This document shows positions 3,348-52,544 of a stretch of 64,000 nucleotides of DNA, piece after piece. The notes beneath the pieces were generated by a model, which worked only from the letters and a program-made list of their open reading frames with translations, was not told the DNA's origin and made no database searches. The stretch is taken from NCBI RefSeq assembly GCF_900100255.1, contig NZ_FMTS01000004.1, forward strand, positions 124,001 to 188,000, given 5' to 3'. The position numbers and the translations under genes were made by a program. The DNA comes from Asticcacaulis taihuensis. Its GTDB lineage: Bacteria > Pseudomonadota > Alphaproteobacteria > Caulobacterales > Caulobacteraceae. How positions within the stretch are numbered: position 1 is the stretch's first letter; every line of letters starts with the position of its first letter.

Positions 3348-3357
3348 GCAAAAAAAA

Positions 3358-3377: not shown

Positions 3378-3381
3378 CAGT

Positions 3382-3468
3382 TTACAGGGAGGAAACGCCC
3401 AGGAAGGGCATCAGCGCCAGGAAGGCACCGAACAATTGTATAATATGGTGCGATGCGGAAAATTTCAA
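3382..3468 (-). CDS. Possible 28-residue hydrophobic small protein
   Basis: A TTG-initiated frame on the minus strand encodes MKFSASHHIIQLFGAFLALM and eight further residues ending in VSSL, a single hydrophobic helix. Its stop is five bases before the terminator at 3358-3377, which is what one expects of a short transcribed gene. Against it are the TTG start, the lack of a clear Shine-Dalgarno and the small size. I do not recognise a family. It could equally be untranslated 3' sequence of the DUF188 transcript. Confidence 0.22.
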   Translation of the reverse strand: MKFSASHHIIQLFGAFLALMPFLGVSSL

Positions 3469-3533
3469 GGTCGATTGTTACAGATTCAATCACATTGGAT
3501 TTGCGATCCGCAACAATCGTCCAGATTGTGTGA

Positions 3534-3992: not shown

Positions 3993-4116
3993 AGCGCGTC
4001 GTAACAGATCGGGTTCGCCATTCCCACATAATTTGCGCCTGCAACGGGTTAGGGCTTGGCGAAAGTGTCCTTTTAACCGAGACTGTTTTGACCTTTGCAA
4101 AAGAGCCTTTCGCGCC

Positions 4117-10721: not shown

Positions 10722-10745
10722 ACATAATGACAACCGGATGAAAAA

Positions 10746-10770
10746 GCCTGCTGCGTTTGGCGCAGCAGGC
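10746..10770. terminator. Bidirectional rho-independent terminator
   Basis: A perfect ten-base stem GCCTGCTGCG/CGCAGCAGGC around a five-base loop, preceded by five A and followed by six T. It lies between the convergent galE (plus) and the polymerase-like gene ending at 10803 (minus) and can serve both. Confidence 0.92.
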
Positions 10771-10802
10771 TTTTTTATATTTTACAAAATTCCCGTCCGA
10801 TA

Positions 10803-12251: not shown

Positions 12252-12348
12252 CTGCCCTATAGCCCTTTATGATTCACATAAAAAATGATGGTATCCAGAC
12301 CGCGGCTCCAGACAATCTTTCTGTCACGTTTCACCTTGGCTGACAAGA

Positions 12349-13437: not shown

Positions 13438-13492
13438 CCGGTTTTGCCTTGCAGCACTCTGCTACCTGCGCCAGAGCGCGGGTAACAGGTGG

Positions 13493-15691: not shown

Positions 15692-15724
15692 AAATTGTGC
15701 CAGATTATCGTGAGTATGAAACAG

Positions 15725-15747
15725 GCGCCCGGATTATCTCCGGGCGC
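15725..15747. terminator. Intergenic hairpin between barrel gene and wzc-like gene
   Basis: An eight-base perfect stem GCGCCCGG/CCGGGCGC with a seven-base loop lies in the 62-bp gap between the barrel gene and the downstream wzc-like gene. There is no convincing T tract on either strand. It may be a weak terminator or an mRNA-stability element that lowers expression of the downstream genes relative to the barrel protein. Confidence 0.4.
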
Positions 15748-15753
15748 TGCATC

Positions 15754-17083: not shown

Positions 17084-17110
17084 TAAAAAAAGACGCCGGA
17101 TTAACCGGCG
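17084..17110 (-). terminator. Rho-independent terminator overlapping the stop of the 17.1-kb gene
   Basis: The stem CGCCGG/CCGGCG with loop ATTAA (17094-17110) is followed, on the minus strand, by seven T (plus-strand A run just upstream). It overlaps the stop codon region of the preceding minus-strand gene. It implies either partial read-through into the barrel gene or a separate promoter for that gene in the 75-bp gap. Confidence 0.7.
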
Positions 17111-17691
17111 CGGTAACCAGCCCCTGCCGGCGCGCTGTTTGGCGCTATAGGCAGGCTGTAGCCTTTGCTGTGCCCGTTGATGGCGCCGGGCGAAGTTTCA
17201 TCGAACAGCTTGGCCAGGTCACCCTGAACACGGCCGAAAGCGGCCGCCACGTTCTTTGAGAGATTGGGCGTGTTGGAGGCGCGGGTCAGGGCCGTGGAAA
17301 TGCTCAGGGTGGGCACACCGGCCGCGACCTGCGCCTTGATGTCATTCTCGATTGCCACAACGATCAGGGCGACGACATCTTCAGAAACGGCGGCATCACG
17401 CGCCGTGGCATGGGCGCTCTGGCCGGTCTGACCATTGCCCTCGCCGGCAACCGCCAGACCATTACTCGTGGCGCCCGCAATGGCGGCGGCATCACTACCC
17501 AGCGCAACAAAGGCCGCATCTTCCGCCTGGTTTGCCGTGGCGACCAGTTTCACCGCCAGTGATGACGAAGTTTTTTCGACATTCTGCGACATGAGGCCGG
17601 CCGGCGCAGCGACCGCGACAGCCGTGAGAGCTAGGCCAACAGCAGCGCCAAGTCCAAGGATAATCTTTTTCCCAGGGATAATCTTTTTCAT
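17101..17691 (-). CDS. Secreted hypothetical protein of the exopolysaccharide cluster
   Basis: A 196-residue protein with an N-terminal signal sequence (MKKIIPGKKIILGLGAAVGL, then an Ala/Val-rich stretch). The mature part is Ala/Ser/Asn-rich with no catalytic motif, and the C-terminus is Gly/Ala/Pro-rich. The start region contains a direct DNA repeat encoding KKIIP-GKKII. I chose the ATG at 17691 because the signal sequence begins there. No family recognised. It lies between the Wza-like and barrel genes on the same strand, so a periplasmic role in export is plausible but unproven. Confidence 0.65.
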   Translation of the reverse strand: MKKIIPGKKIILGLGAAVGLALTAVAVAAPAGLMSQNVEKTSSSLAVKLVATANQAEDAAFVALGSDAAAIAGATSNGLAVAGEGNGQTGQSAHATARDAAVSEDVVALIVVAIENDIKAQVAAGVPTLSISTALTRASNTPNLSKNVAAAFGRVQGDLAKLFDETSPGAINGHSKGYSLPIAPNSAPAGAGYRAG

Positions 17692-17823
17692 TGTCTTCGA
17701 GTCCCCTCGGTGGCGAAAGAAACTTTTCGCACTTGCTAAAAACGAAACCATAATACTGTTATTGATTCAAGCCCATTAGCCCAAACCGCCTTCGGTGCAA
17801 AGCGATTACACCTAAACTGATAC

Positions 17824-18438
17824 CTAAAAGTAACGTTCGGCAATACGAATCGTGTCGCCGGGGGCAACCAGGGTTGTGGAGGTCAAGGGCACCTCCTCCT
17901 CGGCAGTCGCGCCAGCATGGCGGATGTACACCTTCTTCTGGTTGGCGCGGTAGCTGAAGCCCGACGCCAGAGCCACTGCGTTCACTACAGTAATACCATT
18001 GCTGTAGGGGTATTGGCCGGGCTTGTTGACTTCGCCCAGGATATAGAACGGGCGGAAACTCAGCACCTCGATGCTGACACGCGGATCCTTGAGATAGCCC
18101 TCCTTGAAAGCGTTCTCCACCTTGACCTGCAATTCCGAAGCCGTCAGCCCCGCCGCCGCAACTTCACGAATCAGGGGCAGGGCCACCAGGCCATCACCCG
18201 AAATCGTAAACTCACCACTCAGGTCGGGTTCACCGAAAATAATCAGCCGGATTTTGTCACCGGACCCAAGCCTGTATTCATATCCCGGGCTGACCGACGC
18301 CGTGACCGGCGCAACGGCAGACGCGTCAGGTACCTGAGCCTGAGCCACAGCGCATGTTCCCAAAAGGGTTATCACTATAAGGAACAGCCCCGCCATGGCC
18401 TGCCGGAGCCGGTTGGTCATTACCTGCAATCTGTTCAC
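17824..18438 (-). CDS. Wza-like polysaccharide export protein (short form)
   Basis: A 204-residue secreted protein with a signal peptide (about residues 1-34). It has a Poly_export domain (YRLGSGDKIRLIIFGEPDLSG, then the ISGDGLVALPLI block) and one SLBB-like domain (FYILGEVNKPGQYPY, then VNAVALASGF). E. coli Wza is about 380 residues and has a C-terminal helix crossing the outer membrane; this protein ends after the first SLBB domain and lacks it. The separate barrel protein at 15.8-17.0 kb may supply the outer-membrane pore. It starts with GTG at 18438 with GAGAGG close upstream; an ATG lies six codons later. First gene of the minus-strand export run. Confidence 0.88.
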   Translation of the reverse strand: MNRLQVMTNRLRQAMAGLFLIVITLLGTCAVAQAQVPDASAVAPVTASVSPGYEYRLGSGDKIRLIIFGEPDLSGEFTISGDGLVALPLIREVAAAGLTASELQVKVENAFKEGYLKDPRVSIEVLSFRPFYILGEVNKPGQYPYSNGITVVNAVALASGFSYRANQKKVYIRHAGATAEEEVPLTSTTLVAPGDTIRIAERYF

Positions 18439-28872: not shown

Positions 28873-29805
28873 ATGGGAAGAGTGTTGTTAACGGATCGCC
28901 CCGACCATCTACCCGATTCCAAACGCCGCGAGCTGGAGTTCGTGGTCAAGGTCCTGTTCGATGCCTTCGATGATGCGTTAAAGACAAAGCTGTCAAGCAA
29001 GCGCAAGTCCGGGCAGATTTTGAAAGTCATCCTGTTCGGCTCGATGGCGCGCGGCGACTGGGTGGACGACAGGCAGTCCGGCTATAAATCCGACTTCGAT
29101 CTGCTAGTCGTCGTCAATGGCCACACCTTCACCGACTTGCATGAGTATTGGCACGCTGCCGACGAGCGGTTCGTCCGCGAGTTCACCATCACCCACAGCA
29201 TCGACACTCCGGTCAACTTCATCGTCCACGATCTGGCTGACGTAAACGACCAGTTGGCGCGCGGCCGACCGTTCTTCAGCGACATCGCCCGCGACGGCAT
29301 CATGCTCTACGAAGCCCCAGGGCACCCGCTGGCCAGGCCCAAGGCGCTGACCACGGATGAGGTCGCGGCCGAGGCCAAGGGGTACTATGAGCAGTGGATG
29401 GCCAACGCTGATAACCTGCTCGACCTGGCTAATGGTGCGCTCGCCAAGGGATATGCCAAGCAAGCGGCATTCCTGCTCCACCAGACCACAGAGGCGCTCT
29501 ATCACTGCGTCCTGCTGGTCCTGACACTGTACAGCCCCAAGAGCCACCGTATCACCATGCTGCGCTCACAGGCCGAGGCCCTGGACGACCGTCTAAAGGC
29601 GATCTGGCCCGCTGACAGCAAACTGCACCGCCAGGCCTTCGACCGCCTGCGCCGCGCTTATGTCGAGGCAAGATACTCCGCCGAGTACACCGTCAGCGAC
29701 GAGGAACTGGCCTGGCTGGTCGAGCGCGTCACACGGCTGCAAGAGATCGTCGGGACCATCTGCCATGATCGCCTAAACCAGGCGAAGTTTTCCGGTTACA
29801 AGTAA
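28873..29805 (+). CDS. Fused nucleotidyltransferase (MNT) and HEPN domain protein
   Basis: A 310-residue protein. The N-terminal minimal nucleotidyltransferase domain has the GS motif in LFGSMARGDW and the metal-binding pair in SDFDLLVVV. The spacing between them is about six residues longer than the usual GS-x9-10-DxD because of a DDRQSGYK insertion. The C-terminal HEPN domain (about 165-300) has a four-helix pattern ending in the RRAYVEARYS block. MNT and HEPN are commonly separate antitoxin and toxin genes; here they form one chain, so a toxin-antitoxin, defence or small-molecule modifying role is possible. No Shine-Dalgarno is visible; the message may be leaderless or nearly so. It stands alone, followed by a strong terminator. 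Confidence 0.85.
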   Translation: MGRVLLTDRPDHLPDSKRRELEFVVKVLFDAFDDALKTKLSSKRKSGQILKVILFGSMARGDWVDDRQSGYKSDFDLLVVVNGHTFTDLHEYWHAADERFVREFTITHSIDTPVNFIVHDLADVNDQLARGRPFFSDIARDGIMLYEAPGHPLARPKALTTDEVAAEAKGYYEQWMANADNLLDLANGALAKGYAKQAAFLLHQTTEALYHCVLLVLTLYSPKSHRITMLRSQAEALDDRLKAIWPADSKLHRQAFDRLRRAYVEARYSAEYTVSDEELAWLVERVTRLQEIVGTICHDRLNQAKFSGYK

Positions 29806-29922: not shown

Positions 29923-31473
29923 TTATTTCCCAACCTTCCGCCCCTGCTCGAAGGCATACCCCGTTTTCAGCAGCAGGGCCTCGCTCCATTTGGAGCCAAT
30001 AAAGCTCAGCCCCACAGGCAGGCCCTGGACGGTGCCCATGGGGACGGTCAGGTGGGGATAGCCGGAGGTGGCGGGCAATTGCGTGGCCGAGGGGCCGGTG
30101 TACTGGTCGCCATAGACCAGATCGGACAGCCAGGCCGGGCCGTAGGTGGGCGCGACCAAGACCATGACCTTGTTTGCCGCCAGCAGACCGTCGATTCGGG
30201 CGGCGGACGCATTTCTGGCGAGGTAGGCGGCGGAGACATAGGCCGGATCATCCAGCCCCTTCGTTTGTTCGGACTGCTCGAAGAGTTCCTGCCCGAAATA
30301 AGGCATTTCCTGCACGGCATTGGCTTTATTGAAAGCGATGACATCGGCTAGGGTGCGCGTTTTTACCGCTGGCGGGGTCGAGGCCAGATAGGCGTTCAGG
30401 TCCGCTTTCAGTTCGGTCATCATGACGGTCATTTCGGCATCGCCCAGTCCCTTGACCGAGCTATCCTTGATATCGACCAGCACCGCGCCCTGGTCGGTGA
30501 GCTGCTTCAGTGCGGCTTCGAATATGGCGGTGGTTTTGGCGTCATTGCCGACCTGATCGCGCAGCACGCCGATGCGGACGCCTTTCAGGCTGGCGCCGGC
30601 GAGACCAGCAACGTAATCCATCTTATGGGCGTCGGCCTCGGCGGTCGCCTTATCCGCCGGGTCGCTGCCGGCCATTACGGTCAGCATGGCGGCGATATCG
30701 GCCACGGAATGGCCCATCGGTCCCGGCGTATCCTGGCTGTGGGAGATCGGCACGACATAGGTGCGCGAGACCAGTCCGACGGTCGGTTTGAGGCCGACAA
30801 GCCCGTTCATCGATGACGGACAGGTGACGCTGCCATCGGTTTCCGTGCCTACTGCCAGCGGGGCCAGCCCAGCCGCCACACCGGTGCCGGAACCGGAGGA
30901 CGAGCCGCAGGCGGTGCGGGCATGATCGACCGCATTGGCGGTCAGGCCGCCGACGCCGCTCCAGCCGCTGACCGAACGGGTGGAGCGGATATTGGCCCAT
31001 TCCGACAGGTTGGCCTTGCCGAGGATGATGGCGCCGCCGGCGCGCAGGTTGGCCACCACCGGCGCGTCGCGGTGGGTGATATTGGCGGCCAGGGCCATGG
31101 AACCGGCGGTCGTCGGCATGATATCGGCCGTCTCGATATTGTCCTTGATCAGGACGGGGATGCCCATCAGGGGGCCAAAATCCTTGCCGGCCTTGCGGGC
31201 GTCGTCGGATTCTTTGGCGCGTTTCAGGGCATCGGGATTGACGGTGATGACGGCGTGCAGGTCGCCGTTCTTGGCCTTGATCTGGTCGAGCGCCGCCTGG
31301 GTTAAGTCGGCGGAGGTGTATTTGCCGGCTTTCATATGGGCCTGGATATCGGCGACGGAGGCTGTCAGGTCGGCCTTCGCCTGATCGTAGGCGGATGGCG
31401 CGCGGCCGGGCATCTGGCAGGCGGTCAGGCATAGAGCTATGGCCGCAGTGAGACATAATGGACGAATAGACAT
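29923..31473 (-). CDS. Amidase-signature family lipoprotein
   Basis: A 516-residue amidase-signature hydrolase. The Ser-cisSer-Lys triad is visible: Lys110 in GIPVLIKDN, Ser in the CGSSSGSG block (near 192) and nucleophile Ser215 in GTETDGSVTCPS. The N-terminus is a lipoprotein signal with lipobox LTAC (Cys19), so the enzyme should be anchored to the periplasmic or outer membrane face rather than act on glutamyl-tRNA. The substrate is unknown. It starts with ATG at 31473 and converges on the MNT-HEPN gene. Confidence 0.9.
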   Translation of the reverse strand: MSIRPLCLTAAIALCLTACQMPGRAPSAYDQAKADLTASVADIQAHMKAGKYTSADLTQAALDQIKAKNGDLHAVITVNPDALKRAKESDDARKAGKDFGPLMGIPVLIKDNIETADIMPTTAGSMALAANITHRDAPVVANLRAGGAIILGKANLSEWANIRSTRSVSGWSGVGGLTANAVDHARTACGSSSGSGTGVAAGLAPLAVGTETDGSVTCPSSMNGLVGLKPTVGLVSRTYVVPISHSQDTPGPMGHSVADIAAMLTVMAGSDPADKATAEADAHKMDYVAGLAGASLKGVRIGVLRDQVGNDAKTTAIFEAALKQLTDQGAVLVDIKDSSVKGLGDAEMTVMMTELKADLNAYLASTPPAVKTRTLADVIAFNKANAVQEMPYFGQELFEQSEQTKGLDDPAYVSAAYLARNASAARIDGLLAANKVMVLVAPTYGPAWLSDLVYGDQYTGPSATQLPATSGYPHLTVPMGTVQGLPVGLSFIGSKWSEALLLKTGYAFEQGRKVGK

Positions 31474-31652
31474 GCGCGCCTCCCCTTAAGAAAGCGTAAG
31501 TTAGCTACAAATTTGTGAAGGCGACAAGTGAAACCGAATAAGCCGTTGCGCAGGGCGTCAAAAGGCAAGTAAGAACCCCACCACCATCCGTCTTCGCCTG
31601 AAGGCTGCGCCGGACTGTCCCCCTCCCTGTTTACCGGGGAAGTACAAGATAT

Positions 31653-32444
31653 GTGGAGCTTTCCTTGGACCTGAACCCGATCATGCTGGCTGCCGGCGCC
31701 GAGATCATGCGCATCTATGCCACCGATTTCGCCGTGGTGACAAAAGGCGATTCGTCGCCAGTTACTGAAGCCGATCAGAGAGCCGAAGCCATTATACTGG
31801 CCGGTCTGAAGCACATCGCGCCCGGCATTCCGGTCATCGCCGAGGAAGAGGCGGCGGCAGGCCGTTTCCCGACAACCGCCGGCACCTTCTTTCTGGTCGA
31901 TCCGCTGGACGGCACCAAGGAATTTATCTCGAAAAACGGCGAGTTCACGGTCAATATCGCGCTGATCGAAGATGGCAAGCCGGTTCTGGGCGCGGTCTAT
32001 GCGCCGGCGCTGGGCAAGATCTGGTGGGGCTCGGCGGGTAAGGGCGCCTTTATGGCCGAGGTGAGCGAGGGCGTGATCGGCGAGGCGCGTCCCATAAGCG
32101 TGCGCCAGCCGGAAGGGGGCCTGATCGCCGTAGGTTCGCGCTCGCATGGCGGGGCGGAAACGCAGGCATATCTGGAAGCCTATACGGTTGCCGATTTTGT
32201 CGCCGCCGGGTCATCGCTGAAATTCTGCCTGATCGCCGAAGGGCGCGCCGATATCTATCCGCGCATGGGCCGCACTATGGAATGGGATACGGCAGCGGGT
32301 GACGCCATCCTGCGCGCCGCCGGCGGACGGGTGGAAACGTTGGATGGTCTGCCGCTCAGATACGGCAAGCGCTTTCAGGATAACGATGGCGACTATGCCA
32401 ATCCCCATTTCGTGGCATTTGGTCATTTAAGCGTAAGTCGTTAG
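31653..32444 (+). CDS. cysQ: 3'(2'),5'-bisphosphate nucleotidase
   Basis: Hydrolyses 3'-phosphoadenosine 5'-phosphate (PAP), the product of sulfotransferases, to AMP. The 263-residue product of the inositol-monophosphatase superfamily shows metal-binding motifs AEEEAAAGR (Glu), DPLDGTKEFI (Asp-x-x-Asp-Gly) and MEWDTAAGDAILRAAGG. A GTG start at 31653 gives the family-like N-terminus MELSLDLNPIMLAAGAEIM. It opens the co-directional run with a sulfotransferase and cysDNC, which fits removal of PAP made during sulfation. Confidence 0.9.
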   Translation: MELSLDLNPIMLAAGAEIMRIYATDFAVVTKGDSSPVTEADQRAEAIILAGLKHIAPGIPVIAEEEAAAGRFPTTAGTFFLVDPLDGTKEFISKNGEFTVNIALIEDGKPVLGAVYAPALGKIWWGSAGKGAFMAEVSEGVIGEARPISVRQPEGGLIAVGSRSHGGAETQAYLEAYTVADFVAAGSSLKFCLIAEGRADIYPRMGRTMEWDTAAGDAILRAAGGRVETLDGLPLRYGKRFQDNDGDYANPHFVAFGHLSVSR

Positions 32445-32514
32445 AGGTGCATAAAACCGTTGCCGGAAAATAACATCGGCTTTAAGCCGGTCGTGACTCA
32501 ATCTGGACATTGCA

Positions 32515-33333
32515 ATGCCGACCATTTTATTGACAGGAATTCCACGCTCGGGAACGACCTTGGCGTGCAAACTCCTGAACGAATTCCCTGACACAGTGAC
32601 CCTGGCCGAACCGTTGAGCTTGCAGAAGCGCGGGGATATGGCGGGCGCGGCAGAAGAGATTGCTGACTTTGTCGCCCAGGCCCGTCACGACGCCCTGACA
32701 ACAAACACGGCCGTCTCGCGTCACATAAACGGTGTCGTTCCCGAAAACTGGGCTGAAGCGCCCGGTCGGGACCAGAAATTGCGTCAGGCCCAAACGTCTC
32801 TCAGCGCCATTGGTCTGAAGAAGCCTCTGACCGATGATTTTCACCTGATCATCAAGCAGCCCGGCGAGTTCACCGCGCTTTATAATGTTTTGAAAACGAA
32901 ATATCCGGTTTTTGCCCTGGTACGTCACCCCCTGGCCGCGCTTGCCGCCTGGCAAACCGTCAATATGCCTATTCATGAAGGCCGTATGCCGGTTCTCGAA
33001 GCTTTTCATCCAGAGCTGACGGCGCAACTCAACGCTATATATGATCGCGTCAAACGCCAGGTTCACCTGCTGGGCTGGATTCTTGACGTATATACGCGTT
33101 TTCCTGCCGAAAATATTATCCGCTACGAAGACATGCTCGCCGACTCTCAACGCAGCCTGGGTAAGATAACCGCTCACAGCCAGCCATCTGCGAAACCGCT
33201 CAAGGCATTTGACCTGCAAGAGCGTTATCCCGGTGTCGACCTGCCTTTGCTCGCCCGCGAACTACAGGTGCTCGCAGAAAAGGCCGCCCCTTTCTATCCT
33301 GACTTCAACGCCTCTCTTAGCCGTTATATGTAG
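32515..33333 (+). CDS. PAPS-dependent sulfotransferase family protein
   Basis: A 272-residue cytosolic sulfotransferase fold. The 5'-phosphosulfate loop is GIPRSGTT (residues 8-15) and the 3'-phosphate-binding segment is LVRHPLAALAAW (about 135-146); the region in between varies, as in carbohydrate sulfotransferases. It should transfer sulfate from PAPS to a hydroxyl or amine, here probably a cell-surface glycan, because a glycosyltransferase gene follows six bases after the stop and the PAPS genes are next. Acceptor unknown. Confidence 0.85.
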   Translation: MPTILLTGIPRSGTTLACKLLNEFPDTVTLAEPLSLQKRGDMAGAAEEIADFVAQARHDALTTNTAVSRHINGVVPENWAEAPGRDQKLRQAQTSLSAIGLKKPLTDDFHLIIKQPGEFTALYNVLKTKYPVFALVRHPLAALAAWQTVNMPIHEGRMPVLEAFHPELTAQLNAIYDRVKRQVHLLGWILDVYTRFPAENIIRYEDMLADSQRSLGKITAHSQPSAKPLKAFDLQERYPGVDLPLLARELQVLAEKAAPFYPDFNASLSRYM

Positions 33334-33339
33334 GCGGAT

Positions 33340-34302
33340 ATGAAAGGTAAGGTCTACGTCGTTAACGCCTATGTACCCAATGGCGGCACCTTGATGGCCT
33401 ATCATATGGCCGTCATTCTGCACCGTGATTTTGGGTATGAGGTCTGCGTTCTTACCGACAGATGCGGGCCGGATCACGGCATATTCGTATATGAGCCGGT
33501 CTTTGAAACAAAGCCTTTAGCCGATATCGACAAACTCATCACCGCCCGCGACATCTTGATCTGCAATCCGTCCTTCTCCACGCATAATTTCGGCCTGCGG
33601 TTCGACTGCCTCAAGATCATGTATGTACAGGGGTTCACGACCTTTTCCCTGATCGATCGCTTTTTCGATCACTATGTCAGTGTCAGCGGCTTTGTACAAA
33701 ATTTCCTATCATCGACCTACGACCTGCACACACGGGTCATCCCGCCCTTTATCTCGCTGAATGCTCACTCGCCCGCTTTAGGCTGGCTTGACCGGCCGGA
33801 AGGATCGCTGGCCCTGAACCTGAAGGGCAGTTATGATCTGCAAAGCCTGCTGCTGGAACGTATCCGCCAGCGCATGACGATCATCGCGCCTCAGGTTGAA
33901 GCCGGAATTGACTGGGAGAAGGCCTTGCAATTATCTGCGACAAAACTCCCACACGGAGACATGCTGCGGCGCTTGGGCGAAGTTCGCTACCTGCTGAGCC
34001 TCGCTGTCGGCGAAGGTTTCGGCCTGGTGCCGCTAGAAGCCATGGGAATGGGCACGACGGTGGTCGGCTTTGACGGTTTCGGGGGACGCGATTATGTCCG
34101 GCATGGCGATAACTGCGCCTTGCGAGCCTATCCGGATATAGACGGCGTGGCGGACGATCTGGTGCGCGTGCTGACCGATACCGGCTACGCGCAATCCCTG
34201 GCACGAAAGGGGCGGGAAACAGCCAACCTGTACACATATGAGCGTTTTCGTGCCGCCTGGATCGAAGAATTTCAGCAGGCATTTCGCCGAAAAGGCTTTT
34301 AA
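33340..34302 (+). CDS. Glycosyltransferase, GT4-like (short)
   Basis: A 320-residue GT-B type protein. The C-terminal half has the GT4-like block LSLAVGEGFGLVPLEAMGMGTTVVGFDGFGGRDYV containing E-x7-E. The N-terminal half starts MKGKVYVVNAYVPNGGTLMA. It is shorter than most GT4 enzymes (about 350-400), with a compact nucleotide domain. It starts six bases after the sulfotransferase gene, so they are almost certainly co-transcribed and may act on the same oligosaccharide. Donor sugar unknown. Confidence 0.8.
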   Translation: MKGKVYVVNAYVPNGGTLMAYHMAVILHRDFGYEVCVLTDRCGPDHGIFVYEPVFETKPLADIDKLITARDILICNPSFSTHNFGLRFDCLKIMYVQGFTTFSLIDRFFDHYVSVSGFVQNFLSSTYDLHTRVIPPFISLNAHSPALGWLDRPEGSLALNLKGSYDLQSLLLERIRQRMTIIAPQVEAGIDWEKALQLSATKLPHGDMLRRLGEVRYLLSLAVGEGFGLVPLEAMGMGTTVVGFDGFGGRDYVRHGDNCALRAYPDIDGVADDLVRVLTDTGYAQSLARKGRETANLYTYERFRAAWIEEFQQAFRRKGF

Positions 34303-34411
34303 TCAGTCGATTGCCGACAGGTTAGGATTGCTGAACAATCGGACGAGGCTTAAACGTTTGCGGCTTTGATGCGCGGTGGCTAGAAGGTGCGCTCGAATTG
34401 AGGTTTCCTGT

Positions 34412-35326
34412 ATGCCTGTTACGCCTGAAAGAATGACCCATCTGAAGCGCCTTGAAGCCGAGGCGATCTTCATCATGCGCGAAGTCGCCGCCGAGTTCAA
34501 AAATCCGGTCATGCTCTATTCGATCGGCAAGGATTCGTCGGTCATGCTGCACCTGGCGCTCAAGGCCTTCTATCCGTCAAAGCCGCCCTTCCCGTTCATG
34601 CACGTCAATACGACGTGGAAATTCCGCGAGATGATCAGGTTCCGCGACGAGACCGCGGCGCGCCTGGGCCTGAACCTGATCAGCCACACCAACCAGGAAG
34701 GCGTGGCCAATAACGTCAATCCATTCGATCACGGTTCCAGTGTCTTCACCAACATCATGAAGACCGATGCCCTGAAACAGGCCCTGACAGAGCATGGTTT
34801 CGATGCGGCCTTCGGCGGCGCCCGCCGCGACGAGGAAAAGAGCCGTGCCAAGGAGCGCATCTTCTCCTTCCGCACCGCCAATCACGGCTGGGACCCGAAG
34901 AACCAGCGTCCGGAACTGTGGAATCTCTACAATGCCCGCGTGAAGCCCGGCGAATCGATCCGCGTCTTCCCGATCTCCAACTGGACCGAACTGGACATCT
35001 GGCAATATATCCTGATGGAGAATATCCCCATCGTGCCGCTTTATTTTGCGAAAAAGCGCCCGGTCGTGCAGCGTGGCGGCCAGTGGATCATGGTCGATGA
35101 CGACCGCCTGCCGCTCAATCCCGGCGAAGTGCCGGAAATGAAATCCGTGCGTTTCCGCACCCTGGGGGATTACCCCTTAACCGCCGCCGTCGAATCCGAA
35201 GCCGATACCCTAGAAGCCATTGTCGCCGAAATGCTGGTGGCCCGCACCTCGGAGCGCTCCGGTCGTCTGATCGACCACGACGAAGCCGGCTCGATGGAAA
35301 AGAAGAAGCGCGAAGGTTATTTCTAA
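34412..35326 (+). CDS. cysD: Sulfate adenylyltransferase subunit 2
   Basis: The ATP-sulfurylase catalytic subunit, which makes adenylyl sulfate (APS) from ATP and sulfate with the CysN GTPase. The 304-residue product has the N-type ATP pyrophosphatase PP-motif [13 protein letters not shown], the [20 protein letters not shown] block and the C-terminal KKREGYF. ATG 34412 has GAGG eight bases upstream and begins the family-like [19 protein letters not shown]. The last base of the stop codon is the first base of the cysNC start. Confidence 0.95.
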
Positions 35327-37257
35327 TGAATACGACTGTTATGGAAGACGCCCTCGACACAAAAGCGCTCGTGGAATATCTGGCCACGCACGAAAAGAAG
35401 GATCTGCTGCGTTTCCTGACCTGCGGGTCGGTGGATGACGGCAAGTCGACCCTGATCGGCCGCCTGCTCTATGACACCAAGCTGATCTTCGAGGATCAGT
35501 TGGCAAGTATCGAGAAGGATTCGAAGAAGCACGGCACGGTCGGTGACGATATCGACCTGGCCCTGCTCGTTGATGGTTTGCAGGCCGAGCGCGAGCAAGG
35601 CATTACCATTGATGTCGCCTACCGGTTCTTCACAACCGACAAGCGCAAGTTCATTGTGGCCGACACCCCCGGCCATGAACAATATACGCGCAATATGGCG
35701 ACCGGGGCGTCGAACTCCGACCTCGCCGTCATCCTGATCGACGCCCGCAAAGGTATATTGACGCAAACGCGCCGTCACTCGTTCATCGTGTCCCTGCTTG
35801 GCATCAAACACGTCGTGCTCGCCGTCAACAAGATCGACCTGATGGACTACTCCCAGGACGTTTTTGATAAGATCGTCGCCGACTACAAGGCGTTCGCCGC
35901 CGATTTCGGCTTCGAGACTCTCCAGGCCATTCCGATGTCCGCCCGCTATGGCGATAACGTGCTGGGCCGCAGCGACAAGCTGCCGTGGTATCAGGGCCCG
36001 ACACTGGTCGAACATCTGGAAACGGTACAGATCGATCAGGACCTGAGCCAAAAGCCTTTCCGCCTTCAGGTTCAGTGGGTCAACCGGCCCGACCTCAATT
36101 TCCGCGGCTTCTCCGGCACCATTTCCTCCGGCACGATCCGTCCCGGTGACGACGTACTGGTCGCCAAATCCGGCAAATCCTCAAGAGTCAAGGCGATCGT
36201 CACCTATGACGGCGACCTGGCCGTGGCCGCTGCCGGCCAGGCCATTACGCTGACCCTGGAAGACGAAATCGATATTTCACGCGGTGACGTGATCTCCACT
36301 ACGGATAATCGCCCGGAAGTCTCCGATCAGTTCCAGGCGCGCCTGATCTGGATGAGCGAGCAGGAACTGATCCCCGGCCGCACGCTGCTGATCAAGATCG
36401 GCGCGAAGACCGTTTCGGCATCGGTGACCGAAATAAAGCACAAGACAGACGTCAATACCTTTGCCGACCTGGCCGCCAAGACGCTGAAACTGAATGAAGT
36501 CGCGCTGGTCAATATCGCCTTGCAGGAGCCGGTGGCGTTTGATCCGTATGCGGACAATCACGAAATGGGCGCCTTTATCGTCATCGATCGCGTGTCGAAC
36601 CTGACGCTCGGTGCCGGCATGATCGAGCACGGACTGCGCCGCGCCACCAATGTCCACTGGCAGGCACTCGACGTCAACAAGGCGACGCGCGCCGCCGCCA
36701 AGGGCCAGAAACCGGCCGTGTTGTGGTTCACCGGGCTTTCCGGCGCCGGCAAATCGACCATCGCCAATCTGGTGGAAAAGAAGTTGCTCAGCCTCGGCCA
36801 CCACACCTACCTGCTCGATGGCGACAATGTGCGCCACGGCCTGAATAAGGACTTAGGCTTCACCGATGCCGACCGCGTGGAAAATATCCGCCGCGTGGCC
36901 GAGGTCTCCAAGCTGATGGTCGATGCCGGCCTGGTGACGCTCGTCTCATTCATCTCGCCCTTCCGCGCCGAACGCCAGATGGCGCGCGAACTGCTGGGCG
37001 AGAACGAGTTCATCGAAATCTATGTCTCGACCCCGCTTGATGTGGTGGAAAAGCGCGACGTTAAGGGCCTCTACGTCAAGGCGCGCGCCGGCGAGATCAG
37101 GAACTTCACCGGTATCGACAGCCCTTACGAAGCGCCGGAAAACCCGGAACTGACACTCGACACCACGAGCCAGACACCTGAGCAACTGGCGGAAAAAGTT
37201 GTGCTCTTCATGGTCAAGAATGGCTATCTTATAAGCGCACCAGAGTATCAGATTTAA
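35326..37257 (+). CDS. cysNC: Bifunctional sulfate adenylyltransferase subunit 1 / APS kinase
   Basis: A 643-residue fusion. The N-terminal CysN GTPase (about 1-440) has G1 [12 protein letters not shown] near residue 34, [12 protein letters not shown] and NKIDLMD. The C-terminal APS kinase (about 460-643) has the P-loop GLSGAGKST near residue 470, [10 protein letters not shown] and the FISPFRAER block. With CysD it converts sulfate to PAPS, the donor for sulfotransferases. The fusion commits the product to PAPS. No PAPS reductase or sulfite reductase gene is near, so the likely use is sulfation rather than cysteine synthesis, though assimilation genes could lie elsewhere. Confidence 0.95.
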
Positions 37258-37466
37258 CACCTCCGCTGCGGACAGACCCGCCACTACGGTCGCCCGAAAT
37301 AATCATAAAGTCCGTTATTGGAGGATTGTTTGAACGGTATTTTTTGCAAATACGCAGTCACCTTTTGCGTTGCAAAAGCATATGAACTGGTCTAACTGGG
37401 CACTTCACGAGGTGGTATCTACCATATCGTTGCTCTCTATTTGCTTTGTAGGCGGACCTGCTTCTT

Positions 37467-38252
37467 ATGAATAAAGCCTTTCTGGATCTACAAAAGGGGC
37501 TCGCACTCTACAAAGTCTGGGTTTACCAAGCCTATCACGAAATAAGCTCCAAATACAGACACACCATTCTCGGGTCATTATGGATCGCCGGCAGCATGGT
37601 GACAACGTCACTTTGTCTTTCATTGGTATTCGGCATCATCCAGGGGCAAGATCTCCGGACCGTTCTGCCGCATATCATGGGCGGCATTCTAGCCTATACC
37701 ATGATCAGCTTCATCCTGACGGACGGTGCCGAAGTCTTCATCAATGCGGGCGGCATAATCAAAAACCACGCCTATCCCTTTACCTATTATGTATTTGAGG
37801 GCGTTACTCGCTCCTTCCTAACCTTCTTGCATAATTTGATAGTGTTCTACATCGCCATCGCTCTTGTCGGCGGCCTTCGAGTACCAAGCTGGGAAATCCT
37901 GTTGGGTTTGCCTGTTGTTTTGATGAGCATGGTCACTTGGGGCACCTTTGTCGGCATGATGGCTTCGCGTTTTCGCGATCTGCGCTTCATGATGCCCTAT
38001 CTATCACAGCTTATATTCTTCCTGACTCCAATCTTCTGGACAATCGGTACGAATGCCAAGGGCTGGCGCAGTGCGATTGTCGCTGACTACAATCCTTTTT
38101 ATGGTTTGGTAGAAGTGATACGTGCGCCGTTACTTGGACAAGCTCCGTCAGCACAATGCTGGATGCTGGCAATCATTGCCATGGTTACCGGCATTATAGC
38201 CTGGCTGTTGATGTTCAGCGCTTTCCGCCGCCGCATTCCGTTCTGGGTGTAG
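37467..38252 (+). CDS. Polysaccharide ABC transporter, permease (Wzm/KpsM-like)
   Basis: A 261-residue ABC-2 type membrane protein with about six transmembrane helices and the family features SSKYRHTILGSLWIAGSMV (cytoplasmic N-terminal segment) and FRDLRFMMPYLSQLIFFLTPIFW. With the ATPase gene 31 bp downstream it forms the exporter for a finished, lipid-linked polysaccharide. A 209-bp AT-rich gap separates it from cysNC and probably carries its promoter, so the exporter pair may be expressed separately from the PAPS genes. Confidence 0.9.
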   Translation: MNKAFLDLQKGLALYKVWVYQAYHEISSKYRHTILGSLWIAGSMVTTSLCLSLVFGIIQGQDLRTVLPHIMGGILAYTMISFILTDGAEVFINAGGIIKNHAYPFTYYVFEGVTRSFLTFLHNLIVFYIAIALVGGLRVPSWEILLGLPVVLMSMVTWGTFVGMMASRFRDLRFMMPYLSQLIFFLTPIFWTIGTNAKGWRSAIVADYNPFYGLVEVIRAPLLGQAPSAQCWMLAIIAMVTGIIAWLLMFSAFRRRIPFWV

Positions 38253-38283
38253 TTTATAGTCTTCCTGCATTTCCGGTAATCAA

Positions 38284-39033
38284 ATGTCTTCAATCGTCTC
38301 AGTCAACGGACTAGAGCTTTCCTACCCGATCTACTCCATCCGAGCGAGCTCAATCCGTAATACGATTGCGAACCTTGCCGTCGGCGGAAAGCTGCTAAAG
38401 GACGGCCAGGACGTCATTCATGTGCGCGCGCTGGAAGGCCTCAGCTTCTCGCTGTACGAAGGGGACCGCCTTGGTATTATTGGCCACAATGGCGCCGGCA
38501 AGACCACACTGCTAAAGGTTCTGGCAGGGGTGTATGAACCAGACCGCGGCAATGTCACCGTTCACGGCCGCATTTCATCCATGATTGACGTGGGCCTGGG
38601 TCTGGACGCCTCTCTGACCGGTCGTGAAAATATCATGACCATGGGCCGGATGCGCGGCTTTCCGACGCGAGAAATTATCGCCAAGATTCCCGACATGGTC
38701 GAATTCTCCGAACTGGGCGGATATGTCGACCTGCCGGTCAAGGCCTATAGTGCCGGCATGCAGGCGCGTCTGGTTTTCGCCGTCGCCACGACACTGGAGC
38801 CGGATGTTCTGCTGCTGGACGAATGGATCGGCGCCGGCGATGCGGCCTTTCATGAGAAGGCGGCCAACCGAATGAATGACATCCTAAGCCAGTCGCGCGT
38901 CATGGTCTTGGCCACCCATAATTTTGGCATGATTCAAAGTGTCTGCAATAAGCTGCTGGTCCTGAACGGTGGACGCCAGGAATTCTTCGGCAAGGTTGAT
39001 CAATGGGACTTCAACCTGCGCGCGCCTCGCTGA
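38284..39033 (+). CDS. Polysaccharide ABC transporter, ATP-binding protein (Wzt/KpsT-like, short)
   Basis: A 249-residue ATPase with Walker A GHNGAGKTT (about residue 67), ABC signature YSAGMQARL (about 158) and Walker B VLLLDEW (about 178), followed by the H-loop LATHN. It lacks the C-terminal carbohydrate-binding domain of Wzt proteins that recognise modified O-antigen ends, so the exporter is of the capsule/KpsT or non-discriminating type. It is the last gene of the plus-strand run and is followed by the IS630 remnant. Confidence 0.92.
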   Translation: MSSIVSVNGLELSYPIYSIRASSIRNTIANLAVGGKLLKDGQDVIHVRALEGLSFSLYEGDRLGIIGHNGAGKTTLLKVLAGVYEPDRGNVTVHGRISSMIDVGLGLDASLTGRENIMTMGRMRGFPTREIIAKIPDMVEFSELGGYVDLPVKAYSAGMQARLVFAVATTLEPDVLLLDEWIGAGDAAFHEKAANRMNDILSQSRVMVLATHNFGMIQSVCNKLLVLNGGRQEFFGKVDQWDFNLRAPR

Positions 39034-39104
39034 ATCTGGACCTCGGCATTCGATCTGAATAGATCAGATTAGCGGTATAATTTTTGTTTTAGAGCATTAC
39101 GATT

Positions 39105-39382
39105 TTAGATTAAATCATATGCTGAGTTCCTGAAGTAATTTGCGCATTTGTCTGGAGAAAAGAGGTCAATGAGTTGGCCTATCTTTCTCCAGACGTTTTC
39201 CCTGGTTCGCTCAGCCGCCTTTCTCATGAGGTGTTTGAGCTTCGAGAAGACCTGCTCGATCGGGTTTAGATCAGGACTGTATGGTGGTAGGAAGAGCAAT
39301 CTTGCGCCAGCCCTGCGGATAGCTCTACGAGCCGCTTTGGCTTTGTGGCTGGATAGATTGTCGAGAATGACGATGTCGCCCG
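39105..39382 (-). pseudogene. IS630-family transposase, 3' part (DDE C-terminal half)
   Basis: Encodes the C-terminal catalytic part of an IS630-type DDE transposase: [20 protein letters not shown] with the second catalytic Asp, then [23 protein letters not shown] with the terminal acidic residue, ending in FRNSAYDLI and a stop at 39105. It is cut from its 5' part by the IS66 element starting at 39391. It has no start codon of its own apart from internal ones. Confidence 0.9.
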
Positions 39383-39390
39383 GCTTGAGC
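39383..39390. repeat. IS66 target-site duplication, left copy
   Basis: The octamer GCTTGAGC lies directly outside the left IS66 inverted repeat and recurs at 42313-42320 outside the right one. Eight-base duplications are the hallmark of IS66-family insertion. Confidence 0.95.
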
Positions 39391-39403
39391 GTAAGCGTCC
39401 GGT
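39391..39403. repeat. IS66 inverted repeat, left
   Basis: GTAAGCGTCCGGT; matches the right terminal repeat at 42300-42312 without mismatch. Confidence 0.95.
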
Positions 39404-39867: not shown

Positions 39868-41413
39868 TTAACCGGCGATTGATCTCCAAGACAACAGGTC
39901 ACGCAATGCCTGCGGAGTGGCGTTACCGACGCGGCCAAGCACGTCGGCCTAATACCGCTCCGGTTCCAACCCATTGAGCTTGGCAGTCTCGATGAGTGTC
40001 AGGATTGGCCGTGCGTTCACCGCCGGCATCCGAGCCGGCGAACAGCCAGTTGTTACGGCCCACAGCAATCGGCCGGATGGCTCGCTCGGCGGCATTGTTG
40101 TCGATCTCGACGGTGCCATCATCGAGGTAGACCTGCAGGGCATCCCAGCGCGCCAGGCCATAGCGCATGGCTTCCGCCAGCGTCTGCTTCTGCGGAACCT
40201 TCGGCAAGGTGTCCTTCATCCAGCGATGAAGGGCTTCCACTCGCGGTCGGGCATGTTCCTGTCGCTGTCGTCGCCGCTCGCAGGGCGGAAGGCCCTTGAC
40301 CCTGGCCTCAATCTCGTAGAGCTCGCCGATCCGCCGCAGTGCCTCGTCAGCCAGAGTGGATCGCTTAATTTTGATAACATCGTGGAACTTGCGTCGCAAG
40401 TGCGCCCAGCAGGCGGCCTCCGTGATGCTGTTGCCATAGAGCTTCTTGTAGTCGGCATAGCCGTCAGCGTGCAGCACGCCGTTAAAGCCAGTCAGATGAT
40501 CCTTCAGGTGTTCACCCTTGCGGTCCGGGCTGAAGAAGTAAGCAACGGCTGGCGGAGCCTGGTCCTGGTAATCGCGACCGTCGCGCACATAGACCCAGAG
40601 GCGGCCCGTCCTGGTTCTCCCCTTGCCGGGCTCCAGCACCGGCACCGGCGTGTCATCGCCATGCACCCGGGAACCGGCAAAGACATGCGCCTTGATCAGG
40701 TCGACCAACGGCGTCAGCAGGTGCGAAGCTTGGCCGACCCAATCCGCCAGGGTCGATCTGGATATCTCGACGCCTTCGCGGGCATAGATCTCGGACTGGC
40801 GGTAGAGCGGCAGGTGGTCATCGAACTTCGACACCAGCACATGGGCCAGCAAGCCAGCACCTGGCTTACCGCGTTCGATTGGCAATGATGGCATCTCGCC
40901 GCTCAGTGTCTTATCGCAGCCTTTGCAGATGAAGCGCTTCTCGATGTGACGAAGCACCTTGAAGGAACCCGGCACATAGTCGAGGACCTCGTGCACGCTG
41001 TCCGGCGCCTTCAGGAAGCTGGCACCGCCGCAGTCGGGGCAGGTGCATGGTGCATCATAGACACGCTCTTCCCGTGGCAGATGGTCTGGCAGTGGTTGGC
41101 GCGACGGCTTGTCCTTCGCCTCAGTGTCCGCGTTGGATATGGGAAAAACAGCCGTGACCTCAGCCCGGTTGGCTTCGAGGTCTTCCAGCATCAGCTCAAG
41201 CTGGTCGGCCTTCTCCGACGACGCACCGTACTTACCGTGACGCAGCAGTGTGAGCTGCGCACGAAGCATGTCGATAATGCTGTCGCGCTTGTTGGTCTCG
41301 GCCTTCTCGCGGGCAATTGCGGCTTCCGCATCCGCCAACTGCTGGGCCTGCGCGGCGATGATGGCGCGAAGGGCTTCCACGTCGGTAATGTCGGCCAGAG
41401 CCTGCGTATCCAT
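39868..41413 (-). pseudogene. tnpC: IS66 transposase TnpC, inactivated by frameshift and nonsense codon
   Basis: The DDE transposase of IS66. Starting at 41413, the first about 470 residues are intact: a coiled N-terminus, the Cys-rich zinc-binding-like motif APCTCPDCGG, the catalytic-core blocks VHGDDTPVPVL and HADGYADYKKLYG, and DNNAAERAIRPIAVGRNNWLFAGSDAGGER. Just after GGERTA, near 40005, two bases are missing relative to the family sequence and the frame runs into unrelated residues. In the correct frame LIETAKLNGLEPERY continues but meets a TAG at 39949-39951. The last family-like segment ends in LLSWRSIAG at 39868. Two independent lesions indicate decay. Confidence 0.9.
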
Positions 41414-43068: not shown

Positions 43069-43992
43069 CTAGCGCATAAGCTCGGCGAAACGATTGATCG
43101 AATGGGCAACGGCTGAGACCTGCATGGTTCGGGGATTGGCCTGTACATATTTTTCCACTACATAATCCCAGACACATTGATCGAGACGAGAGCGAGCTTC
43201 CAGAATGGCCCAAGTATCGTGGGTCAGGTCCTGACGAAGGGGATGACGCAGATCTTCCGGGACCGGCCGGCTAATATTTTCTGAGGTCAGAACCAGTGAA
43301 TAGCCCAGCCAGGCCTCCAGCTTCGAGATCAGCTCGCTGTCCTCGATGACTCCAACGAAATCGAACTGATCGATGGCCTCAATGGCATCGGCTATCAGAT
43401 CAGCGTCGTGCTCAGGCGGGATGAAGTCATCCCCCGGAATCAATGGGTGCGGATAGAGCAGCATGCGCACGATGACATTGTCGATCTGCGAGGCCAGTTC
43501 CGGGGCGCTTATGAAAGATATGAGGTCGCACCGCGCCAGTTCCAGACGTGGTGTATAAGTCCCCCAGTTGCCAATATCGGCTTCCGAAAAAGTCCGCCAA
43601 TATAGCCAGTGAGACAATATGCGCATCTTTGGCTCACGCAGGACGGTGCATTTCTGGCCGTTTGAATACAGGCGATCAAACCATTTGGCTCCAGCATGTC
43701 CTGCGGCATAATCAATATCGACCGGACAATTTTGCCAGTCTTCGTGAATCCAGTGTCTTACGTTCGGGCCAAAACTGTCATAGTCCTGAAAGCCGCCATA
43801 TAGCGTCGGCCCCAATAGCTTGAACTGACGTGACGCTTCCCATCTCTTGCTGAGGCATGTGTCGAGAGACGTGCCTGCGCATTTAGGAATGTGCATGAAT
43901 ATAAGCGGACGGCTATTCTCACGTGGGCGAAAAGGATAAGGAGAGTCCGCACAGATTATGTGAGTCTTGCTTTCAAAAATAGGCAAATTCAA
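43069..43992 (-). CDS. Sulfotransferase family protein (second in locus)
   Basis: A 307-residue P-loop sulfotransferase with the 5'-phosphosulfate loop HIPKCAGTSL (residues 34-43) and the 3'-phosphate segment VLREPKMRILSHW (near 117). It belongs to the sulfotransferase_2-like group that includes carbohydrate sulfotransferases. It is not closely similar to the enzyme at 32.5 kb, so a different acceptor position is likely. Its 3' end lies about 25 bp from the estimated IS630 end and appears complete. Upstream is a 270-bp AT-rich region with no recognisable gene. Confidence 0.82.
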   Translation of the reverse strand: MNLPIFESKTHIICADSPYPFRPRENSRPLIFMHIPKCAGTSLDTCLSKRWEASRQFKLLGPTLYGGFQDYDSFGPNVRHWIHEDWQNCPVDIDYAAGHAGAKWFDRLYSNGQKCTVLREPKMRILSHWLYWRTFSEADIGNWGTYTPRLELARCDLISFISAPELASQIDNVIVRMLLYPHPLIPGDDFIPPEHDADLIADAIEAIDQFDFVGVIEDSELISKLEAWLGYSLVLTSENISRPVPEDLRHPLRQDLTHDTWAILEARSRLDQCVWDYVVEKYVQANPRTMQVSAVAHSINRFAELMR

Positions 43993-51522: not shown

Positions 51523-52281
51523 TTATATTTCATAGCCAATGTCTTTTAATTCTGCCCCATAATAATATTTATATTCTTCTATGAGCTCATCCGGCAAATA
51601 TTCCTTGTAATAATTATTACTCATCTTCCAAAAAAAATTGCCATCTTTTGGAAAATTATAATTGGTTCTCTCTAATGCCTCTTCAACGCTTACATTTGAG
51701 TTTAAAAATTCAGCCAAAGGCGAGAATGTATTTAATGGATCTTCCATTGCATCCTCATATTTGAGCATAAATATAAACGCGCCATAGCGGGCTTTCAGAT
51801 CATGCCATCGGCGAATGGAATCCCACCAGCTACCCGCCTGATCCGCGCCGGGCGATATATTCCCCACTGTCAGGAACATCGAAAAAAAATGTCTTATTGT
51901 TCCACGCTCGATATGTTCCTGGACAGACACTAAAGGCAAATCGTAGTAAATTTGCAGGTCGGCTCTGTTAATATATATATAATTGAGATAAGAAACAAAA
52001 ACATCGAGAGGATTTCTGTACACGTAAATAAAGAAACGTGTATCTATTTGATTACCTTGATAATCACACACCATTTTATGGTGAGTTTTGAAAAATGCAT
52101 AATCTCCGTATCTGGTAGATATAGGCCTACCGGATTCGGGGTGGTTATCAGGATGATCAACTATATATTCAAGTATATCCTGAGTGTTAAATGTCTTCCT
52201 ATCCGTTGCAAGTGCATAAATCATATTACGCACCCAATTAGACCCTGATCTGGGAAATGAATAAAGCCCCACAGTCTGCAT
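51523..52281 (-). CDS. Sulfotransferase domain protein (third in locus), AT-rich
   Basis: A 252-residue sulfotransferase_1-like protein: 5'-phosphosulfate loop YSFPRSGSNWVRN (residues 7-19), FKTHHK (catalytic-type His) and 3'-phosphate segment YRNPLDVFVSYLNYI (near 90), then KYEDAMEDP. Base composition and codon use are strikingly AT-rich (many AAT, ATA and TAT codons), unlike the flanking genes, which indicates recent acquisition. ATG 52281 has GGAG eight bases upstream. It lies between the hddA 3' end and a decayed copy of that end, so it arrived with or caused a duplication. Confidence 0.85.
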   Translation of the reverse strand: MQTVGLYSFPRSGSNWVRNMIYALATDRKTFNTQDILEYIVDHPDNHPESGRPISTRYGDYAFFKTHHKMVCDYQGNQIDTRFFIYVYRNPLDVFVSYLNYIYINRADLQIYYDLPLVSVQEHIERGTIRHFFSMFLTVGNISPGADQAGSWWDSIRRWHDLKARYGAFIFMLKYEDAMEDPLNTFSPLAEFLNSNVSVEEALERTNYNFPKDGNFFWKMSNNYYKEYLPDELIEEYKYYYGAELKDIGYEI

Positions 52282-52544
52282 TATCAACACTCCAGAAATG
52301 AACAGTTTAAAATACCTATCCCCCGGAACTTAGCAAAGTTCTATCACTTATAGATGCAAAGCAACGTATTAAATAACGTCTGCGTAATTATCCCAAAAAA
52401 AATATCGAGATGATCTCTGGAATCACGAGGATCACCTGCGTAAATCCAGCGTACATGGACGTCGCGTGATGCGGGACGGGTCCTTGTTTCGTTTATCGAC
52501 GCTTTAACAGGTTCGGACAAGGCGCAGACTCGCCCCCCTCCCCC

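Follow-up and report, generated by a model that had tools for sequence, protein, structure and literature searches.

Side by side on one contig of Asticcacaulis taihuensis lie genes for sulfate activation, a sulfotransferase, a glycosyltransferase and a polysaccharide exporter. Do they form a self-contained module dedicated to a sulfated surface polysaccharide, as the initial annotation proposed, or is this an ordinary assimilation locus into which other genes have moved? We analysed a window of 64,000 nucleotides (assembly GCF_900100255.1, contig NZ_FMTS01000004.1, positions 124,001–188,000, forward strand); coordinates below refer to this window. All seven annotated open reading frames were recovered, co-directional on the + strand, and family models agreed with their identities (CysQ, Sulfotransfer_3, glycosyltransferase group 1, CysD, CysNC, ABC2_membrane and ABC_tran).

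Sulfate activation genes

The first gene, cysQ (31653–32444, +), encoded a 3'(2'),5'-bisphosphate nucleotidase, or PAP phosphatase (TIGR01331, 294.7 bits, cut-off 228.8). Further downstream, cysD (34412–35326, +; TIGR02039, 515.7 bits) encoded the small subunit of ATP sulfurylase, and cysNC (35326–37257, +; NF004035, 1053.7 bits) the large subunit fused to an APS kinase. The two were adjacent and above their NCBIfam cut-offs, as in a heterodimeric ATP sulfurylase. The listed frame of cysD began at a GTG at 34376; from alignment with congeners, the true start is probably the ATG at 34412, as in the relatives.

The locus held the only strong APS kinase of the genome. The APS_kinase domain of CysNC scored 236 bits, and the two other matches 23.9 and 23 bits (cut-off 21.1). 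Only one CysNC match was found at 1e-60 (three of 14 candidates scored), being also the sole CysN match, and no PF01747 sulfurylase was found in the genome. A CysD paralogue was present in a DabB-DabA run, yet it was discounted as a second ATP sulfurylase because the genome holds just one CysNC match. With one CysNC match and one strong APS kinase, the genome lacked the extra PAPS genes, over and above those for assimilation, that a dedicated nodPQ-like sulfation operon would bring.

CysNC was encoded in all 25 genomes of the genus and in 352 of 390 of the family. We compared stretches of 10–20 kb around cysDNC from 19 of 24 congeners (G023, G026, G032, G036 and G039 left out) and from 17 loci of other genera. 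The cysD and cysNC genes were adjacent in all 36, and cysQ was upstream of cysD on the same strand in 17 of the 19 congener stretches, at most 300 bases away in 12. Thus, cysQ and cysD-cysNC are an ordinary sulfate-activation locus common to the relatives.

Insertion of a sulfotransferase and a glycosyltransferase

Between cysQ and cysD were a PAPS-type sulfotransferase, ST1 (32515–33333, +; Sulfotransfer_3, 32.7 bits, cut-off 27), and its partner, the GT4-type glycosyltransferase GTa (33340–34302, +; Glycos_transf_1, 38.8 bits, cut-off 26.4). At 1e-8, none of the 36 stretches around cysDNC contained either gene. Searching the 19 congener stretches with eight sulfotransferase queries plus an ST1 HMM returned a single marginal match (20 bits, L064). 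A conserved element, possibly a promoter or regulatory site, lay upstream of cysD (34321–34360, +, from congener comparison), starting 18 bases past the GTa stop codon. Its block was present in 11 of 19 congener loci and its core alone in one more; it was missing in seven, including the nearest relative, G035. The core occurred 13 times in 414,503 bases, in each case upstream of cysD. Judged by this comparison, the ST1-GTa pair is an insertion between cysQ and the upstream element of cysD.

Because cysD keeps this element downstream of the inserted pair, the seven genes are not obviously one operon. Scanning 31300–39400 found 3 promoter sites (4.7 in shuffled sequence) and 9 terminator sites (8.0 in shuffled sequence); with counts so similar, the scan was set aside. 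In G035, rml-like genes occupied the joint between cysQ and cysD, and in G031 other genes did (labels from reading the sequence), so an insertion at this place can be unrelated to sulfur.

As the probable reading, we favour an ordinary sulfate-activation locus of the genus that borders on a variable surface-polysaccharide region and has received ST1 and GTa by insertion. APS would be shared with assimilation, and PAPS would serve sulfotransfer to an exported glycan.

Reductive branch and use of PAPS

As initially noted, no PAPS or sulfite reductase was near the locus: the CysH match and both NIR_SIR loci of the genome were on contigs C16 and C10. On C16, a gene run comprised cysG, a NIR_SIR gene (sulfite/nitrite-reductase type), a DUF934 gene and cysH. 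The whole-genome check for reductive genes and a second sulfurylase thus spoke against a dedicated module: with reductive genes on another contig and a sole CysN match, CysDN would be shared with assimilation. The initial annotation had also held that a sole ATP sulfurylase, reductive genes in the same genome and sulfotransferases absent from relatives would together mean ordinary assimilation next to a glycan locus. This is largely what we found, the absence referring to the whole genome for ST1 and to the fetched stretches for ST2 and ST3.

The substrate of CysH bears on what the APS kinase is for. In all 25 genomes of the genus, CysH carried the CC...CxxC motif of APS reductases. It was below the cut-offs of both specific models, TIGR02055 (APS_reductase, 184.9 bits, cut-off 235.3) and TIGR02057 (PAPS_reductase, 172.5 bits, cut-off 254.2). 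It exceeded those of NF002537 and TIGR00434, general models named phosphoadenylyl-sulfate reductase, and its best PDB match was likewise named PAPS reductase. Certain motif-bearing CysH proteins reportedly accept PAPS as well. The cysteine motif makes sulfotransfer the probable role of the APS kinase and CysQ, although the NCBIfam name of CysH points the other way. CysQ is in itself no proof of sulfotransfer, since PAP is also produced by carrier-protein priming. Should CysH take APS, deleting the APS-kinase domain would leave cysteine synthesis intact, and the genus would be a simple test case.

To see whether APS kinase and sulfotransferases are lost together, we compared genome sets taken from match lists, where absence means not being in the lists (totals agreed with the tallies). 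In the genus g5, genomes lacking both sulfotransferase Pfams made up 23 of 26 where APS kinase was absent and 31 of 105 where it was present (p 4e-8, uncorrected for relatedness). Outside g5, the figures were 2 of 19 and 10 of 240 (p 0.22). Joint loss was therefore retained for g5 only and rejected as a family-wide pattern. Twenty of the 45 family genomes without APS kinase still had a sulfotransferase, complete genomes among them, and the congeners G019, G025 and G042 kept APS kinase with neither Pfam.

The strongest alternative is that cysQ-cysD-cysNC feeds cysteine synthesis through PAPS and CysH, ST1 and GTa lying there by chance and functionally unlinked. The sole CysN match, the one strong APS kinase, the reductive genes, the absence of ST1 from the relatives' cysDNC stretches, the NCBIfam name of CysH and the unrelated genes at the joint in G035 and G031 all agree with it; the APS-reductase motif throughout the genus and the co-absence in g5 argue against it. 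On balance we regard it as unlikely, though it keeps real weight beside the shared use of APS that we favour.

ST1 and its partner in other bacteria

The AlphaFold model of ST1 (pLDDT 94.6) was closest in Foldseek to tyrosylprotein sulfotransferases in the PDB (E 1.9e-5, prob 1.00, with a TM of only 0.49). In NCBIfam, its only match at 0.01 was to a 30-residue stretch of NoeE (18.6 bits, cut-off 500). ST1 carried PRSGTT, and R137 and E32 were invariant in all 30 rows of an alignment covering 29 of 32 ST1 loci (L103, L112 and L118 omitted as broken or cut). We take an Arg...Ser motif to be the 3'-phosphate site of PAPS sulfotransferases; its Arg137 was present in 30 of 30 rows and its Ser in 26, the position being Ala in ST1 and three alphaproteobacterial rows.

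Whole-genome searches found ST1 in three of the 390 family genomes, its own included. No relatives were encoded in nine pattern-matching stretches of viral contigs, nor found in plasmid records at 1e-15. A pattern-seeded scan yielded at least 32 ST1 loci. A GT4-HMM match lay at most 500 bases from ST1 in 26 of the 32 (frames taken from the first start codon, large overlaps being start artefacts). Ten loci had long downstream partners, and the four examined were all GT4-sulfotransferase fusions by Pfam. Full-length GTa relatives lay beside ST1 in L093, L094 and L116, where the identities of ST1 and GTa dropped in step (52/52, 43/43 and 36/38%). A second sulfotransferase was present in 18 loci (the query's own locus, L102, counted), a Wzt-like match in seven (one a 47-residue fragment; none in the other 25 stretches) and a Wzm match in four. 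APS kinase was found in one stretch, also with a Wzt-like match, and in none of the other 31.

The substrate of ST1 might instead be a small molecule, a lipid or a protein. The tyrosylprotein sulfotransferase folds fit this, as does Brevundimonas sp. Leaf363, whose ST1 had no GT4-HMM match in its stretch; we consider it improbable in view of the GT4-type neighbours in most loci and the four fusions. Returning to a glycan acceptor, we tentatively propose that ST1 together with a GT4-type partner, whether a gene of its own or a GT4-sulfotransferase fusion beside ST1, is an undescribed, horizontally spread cassette of alpha- and gammaproteobacteria. It might furnish surface glycans with sulfated sugars, as a branch or a cap, and stands here beside PAPS genes; sulfated O-antigen or exopolysaccharide may then have been overlooked in the family. 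If the pair does make sulfated glycans, these would be possible in many proteobacteria.

Exporter and further sulfotransferases

Downstream of cysNC were the polysaccharide ABC exporter permease Wzm (37467–38252, +; ABC2_membrane, 37.2 bits) and the ATPase Wzt (38284–39033, +; 249 aa; ABC_tran, 77.4 bits). By Pfam, this adjacent pair indicates an ABC-exporter-dependent polysaccharide; the nearest NCBIfam models, galactan Wzm (182 bits, cut-off 380) and galactan Wzt (222.5 bits, cut-off 400), were below cut-off. ABC_tran was the only Pfam match of Wzt at 0.001, and no Wzt_C domain was found at this threshold.

Of two further sulfotransferases annotated initially, ST3 (51523–52290, −; Sulfotransfer_1, 65.2 bits, cut-off 22) held up well. 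ST2 (43069–43992, −) is a possible sulfotransferase: it had no Pfam match at 0.001 (Sulfotransfer_2, E 0.095, 13.2 bits, cut-off 22), no sulfotransferase was among its PDB matches, and its single-sequence fold model (pLDDT 31.7) was unusable. The one feature pointing to this identity was a HIPKCAGTS-type motif, presumably a sulfotransferase motif. Sulfotransferase genes as such are not uncommon in the family: Sulfotransfer_3 was above cut-off in 310 of 390 genomes. Titles and abstract beginnings of the openly licensed papers listed mentioned no sulfated glycans of Caulobacteraceae.

The position of ST1 and GTa in the activation locus, beside an exporter, suggests sulfate on a surface polysaccharide. 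CysDN would make APS for two uses. One branch would lead through CysH, on the other contig, to cysteine; in the other, the fused APS kinase would turn part of the APS into PAPS. This would be spent by ST1 and ST3, perhaps also by ST2, and by four long sulfotransferases encoded elsewhere, and CysQ would clear the leftover PAP. GTa probably adds the sugar sulfated by ST1, or its neighbour, and Wzm-Wzt would export the glycan. We infer the direction of PAPS flow, the acceptor sugar, the use of Wzm-Wzt and the sulfate at the cell surface from the genes.

A sulfated surface glycan, as first suggested, thus stays plausible, with the CysH motif and the recurring ST1-GT4 pairs, some with Wzm or Wzt, on its side and the NCBIfam name of CysH against it. 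The self-contained module does not: CysNC is universal in the genus, ST1 is restricted to three family genomes, and reductive genes lie elsewhere. That all seven genes are transcribed together to make a single sulfated polymer is very improbable, despite their common direction, their short gaps and an analogous gene set in L102, as the sole CysN match and the one strong APS kinase presumably also serve assimilation, the conserved element lies inside the supposed unit, and the set occurred in none of the 19 congener stretches.

Comparison with known systems

The closest ST1-GTa pair found was in Nguyenibacter vanlangensis (L093), at the 52% identity given above for both proteins; there, the two genes are convergent, with no cysDNC or Wzt match in the stretch. 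A Cellvibrionaceae MAG (L102, JAGKXD010000009.1) resembles our locus in having a GT4-type gene and ST1 together with Wzm, Wzt and APS kinase. It differs in a kinase without a GTPase domain match, the lack of a CysD match in the stretch, an ST1 only 40% identical, and the presence of a second sulfotransferase and Rml-like genes.

Rhizobia, with their sulfated cell-surface polysaccharides, are a known exception, and their CysH prefers APS (PMC6192434). As described there, NodPQ (CysD-CysNC) acts with NodH or an LPS sulfotransferase, so that, as we propose here, activation genes supply PAPS for the sulfation of surface or signal glycans (PMC6192434). Descriptions of rhizobia include both NodPQ and CysDN, whereas the present genome yielded a single CysN match. 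The likeness of NodH and LpsS to ST1 is one of system, and the NoeE match spans only 30 residues.

In the cyanobacterial synechan (xss) cluster, two sulfotransferases of distinct subfamilies likewise share one polysaccharide cluster (PMC8205485). That cyanobacterial system is discussed in the same text as Wzx/Wzy-type (PMC8205485), whereas in this Asticcacaulis an ABC exporter and the PAPS genes adjoin.

Gene content and proposed pathway

Seven genes on the forward strand (31653–39033) were recognized by ORF and family-model checks, in the order of the initial annotation: cysQ, a Sulfotransfer_3 gene (ST1, 32515–33333), a GT4-type glycosyltransferase gene (GTa, 33340–34302), cysD, with its start probably at the ATG at 34412, cysNC (a CysN-APS kinase fusion), wzm and wzt. 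From the two further, distant sulfotransferases proposed there, ST3 (51523–52290) was confirmed, while ST2 (43069–43992) was recognized by motif only. The ST3 stretch had only 39% G + C, the minimum of the profiled part (28–56 kb). An IS66-family transposase (39923–41413), 3' of wzt, separated it from the next glycan genes. At 28873–29805, one protein with HEPN and nucleotidyltransferase domains was flanked by serine dehydratase and amidase genes.

Family models identified the enzymes of a potential sulfation pathway, for which we infer the flow, acceptor and exporter. CysDN would produce APS and the CysNC kinase PAPS; GTa would add a sugar, ST1 would sulfate, Wzm-Wzt would export the chain and CysQ would clear PAP. 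No Wzt_C domain was found in the Wzt ATPase.

The cysDNC locus in relatives

We compared 10–20 kb stretches from 19 of 24 congeners and 17 members of other genera. cysD adjoined cysNC in all 36, and none had a match to ST1 or GTa (1e-8). In congeners, cysQ was at most 300 bases from cysD in 12/19, about 1.0 to 6.7 kb away in five, and not in the stretch in two. In the nearest relative, G035, the gap held genes that we read as rml-like.

A conserved block 5' of cysD (GTTAG/ATTAG...CTGAA...CTTAAACGTTTG or CTTTTACGTTTG) was found in the window and 11/19 congener loci, with the core alone in one more. It was missing in seven, including G035, several of which had another sequence in common 5' of cysD. 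The 414,503 bases searched contained 13 copies of the core, equal to the number of loci having it before cysD. In the window the block starts 18 bases past the GTa stop codon, which leaves the cysD leader intact and places ST1-GTa between that leader and cysQ. The G + C content dropped to 53–54% across ST1-GTa and to about 50% across wzm, vs 58–60% in the surroundings. Only 3 of 390 family genomes had ST1, counting this one, and neither of the other copies (42 and 35% identical) was at cysDNC. Close to one of them, in another Asticcacaulis, L025 encoded an NKWYS (capsule) domain ahead of a family 2 glycosyltransferase domain (2061–4277).

Sulfate activation and reduction

The genome (3.97 Mb, 19 contigs, listed as 100% complete; window at C13:124001–188000) had one strong APS kinase match (236 bits), two others barely above the cut-off (23.9 and 23), a single CysNC match (1e-60) and no PF01747 sulfurylase. 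CysNC was found in all 25 genus genomes searched and in 352/390 family genomes (1e-60). The three PAPS_reduct matches were the window CysD, a CysH on contig C16 and a CysD paralogue near the C13 end. On C16, cysH shares a run with cysG, a NIR_SIR gene and DUF934. The NIR_SIR gene passed no NCBIfam cut-off, so its cysI label rests on its neighbors; a second one lies on contig C10. Thus the module is not self-contained, contrary to the initial proposal: with one strong APS kinase match, one CysNC match and a reductive run elsewhere, assimilation presumably also receives its APS from the window. Four more long sulfotransferase ORFs (541–676 aa) elsewhere in the genome may also draw on window-derived PAPS.

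The CysD paralogue (297 aa) comes third in its run, behind DabB and DabA (L004, G000:C13:316000–332200, 10385–15026), with a divergent LysR gene at 15080–15943. Here an ATP-sulfurylase small subunit adjoins an inorganic-carbon transporter; the genome has a single CysNC match.

The PAPS arm probably serves sulfation. The CC...CxxC motif, a mark of APS-reducing enzymes, was present in CysH from this and the other 24 genus genomes. All four cysteines were retained in the best PDB match and were missing, at the aligned positions, from the second-best, which is named PAPS reductase. Against an APS-reductase reading, the best match is also named PAPS reductase, and the NCBIfam models above cut-off are named phosphoadenylyl-sulfate reductase; CysH was below cut-off for both the specific APS and PAPS models. 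Rhizobial CysH prefers APS, according to a review (PMC6192434).

Sulfotransferase Pfams (Sulfotransfer_1 and Sulfotransfer_3) were both missing in 23/26 genomes without vs 31/105 with APS kinase in another genus, g5, in 25/45 vs 41/345 across the family, and in 2/19 vs 10/240 outside g5 (p 0.22); given the relatedness of these genomes and the incompleteness of some, this co-loss is support, not proof.

ST1-GT4 pairs in other genomes

The newest part, overlooked in the initial annotation, is the ST1-GT pair. ST1 scored above the Sulfotransfer_3 cut-off, and its predicted structure (pLDDT 94.6) was closest, with modest TM, to tyrosylprotein sulfotransferases. A pattern-seeded scan of a genome collection gave 32 ST1 loci, which we searched with a GT4-type HMM grown from GTa. 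A match lay within 500 bases of ST1 in 26 loci, at 583 and 812 bases in two more, and was absent from four (L096, L103, L104, L123). Those 26 neighbors were among the 29 matching genes across all stretches. GTa relatives were full-length in three loci (L093, L094, L116); the other matches covered part of the protein. Ten loci had a long downstream partner of ST1. All four tested, of about 600 aa and directly 3' of ST1 in gammaproteobacterial MAGs, were fusions of GT4-type and Sulfotransfer_1 domains (L108 10861–12651; L114 10831–12618; L121 2515–4374; L106 9611–11545).

Under the rule initially set, a sole ATP sulfurylase with complete reductive genes, and sulfotransferases absent from relatives, would signify ordinary assimilation genes adjoining a glycan locus. 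Applied here, it gives ordinary activation beside a glycan locus; yet the sulfation reading, drawn from sequence, is still likely. The rule appears too strict in light of the cysteine motif in CysH and the repeated pairing of ST1 with a GT gene.

A second sulfotransferase was found in 18/32 ST1 stretches, often within the GT4 fusion and counting the query source, the Cellvibrionaceae MAG locus L102. Wzt-like matches occurred in seven (one a short fragment), Wzm in four and APS kinase in L102 only. The L102 APS kinase (17086–18009) had no GTPase domain match; it is preceded by a GTP-eEF1A_C-like domain and adjoins Wzm-Wzt. L102 repeats much of the functional set of the window, in a different gene order.
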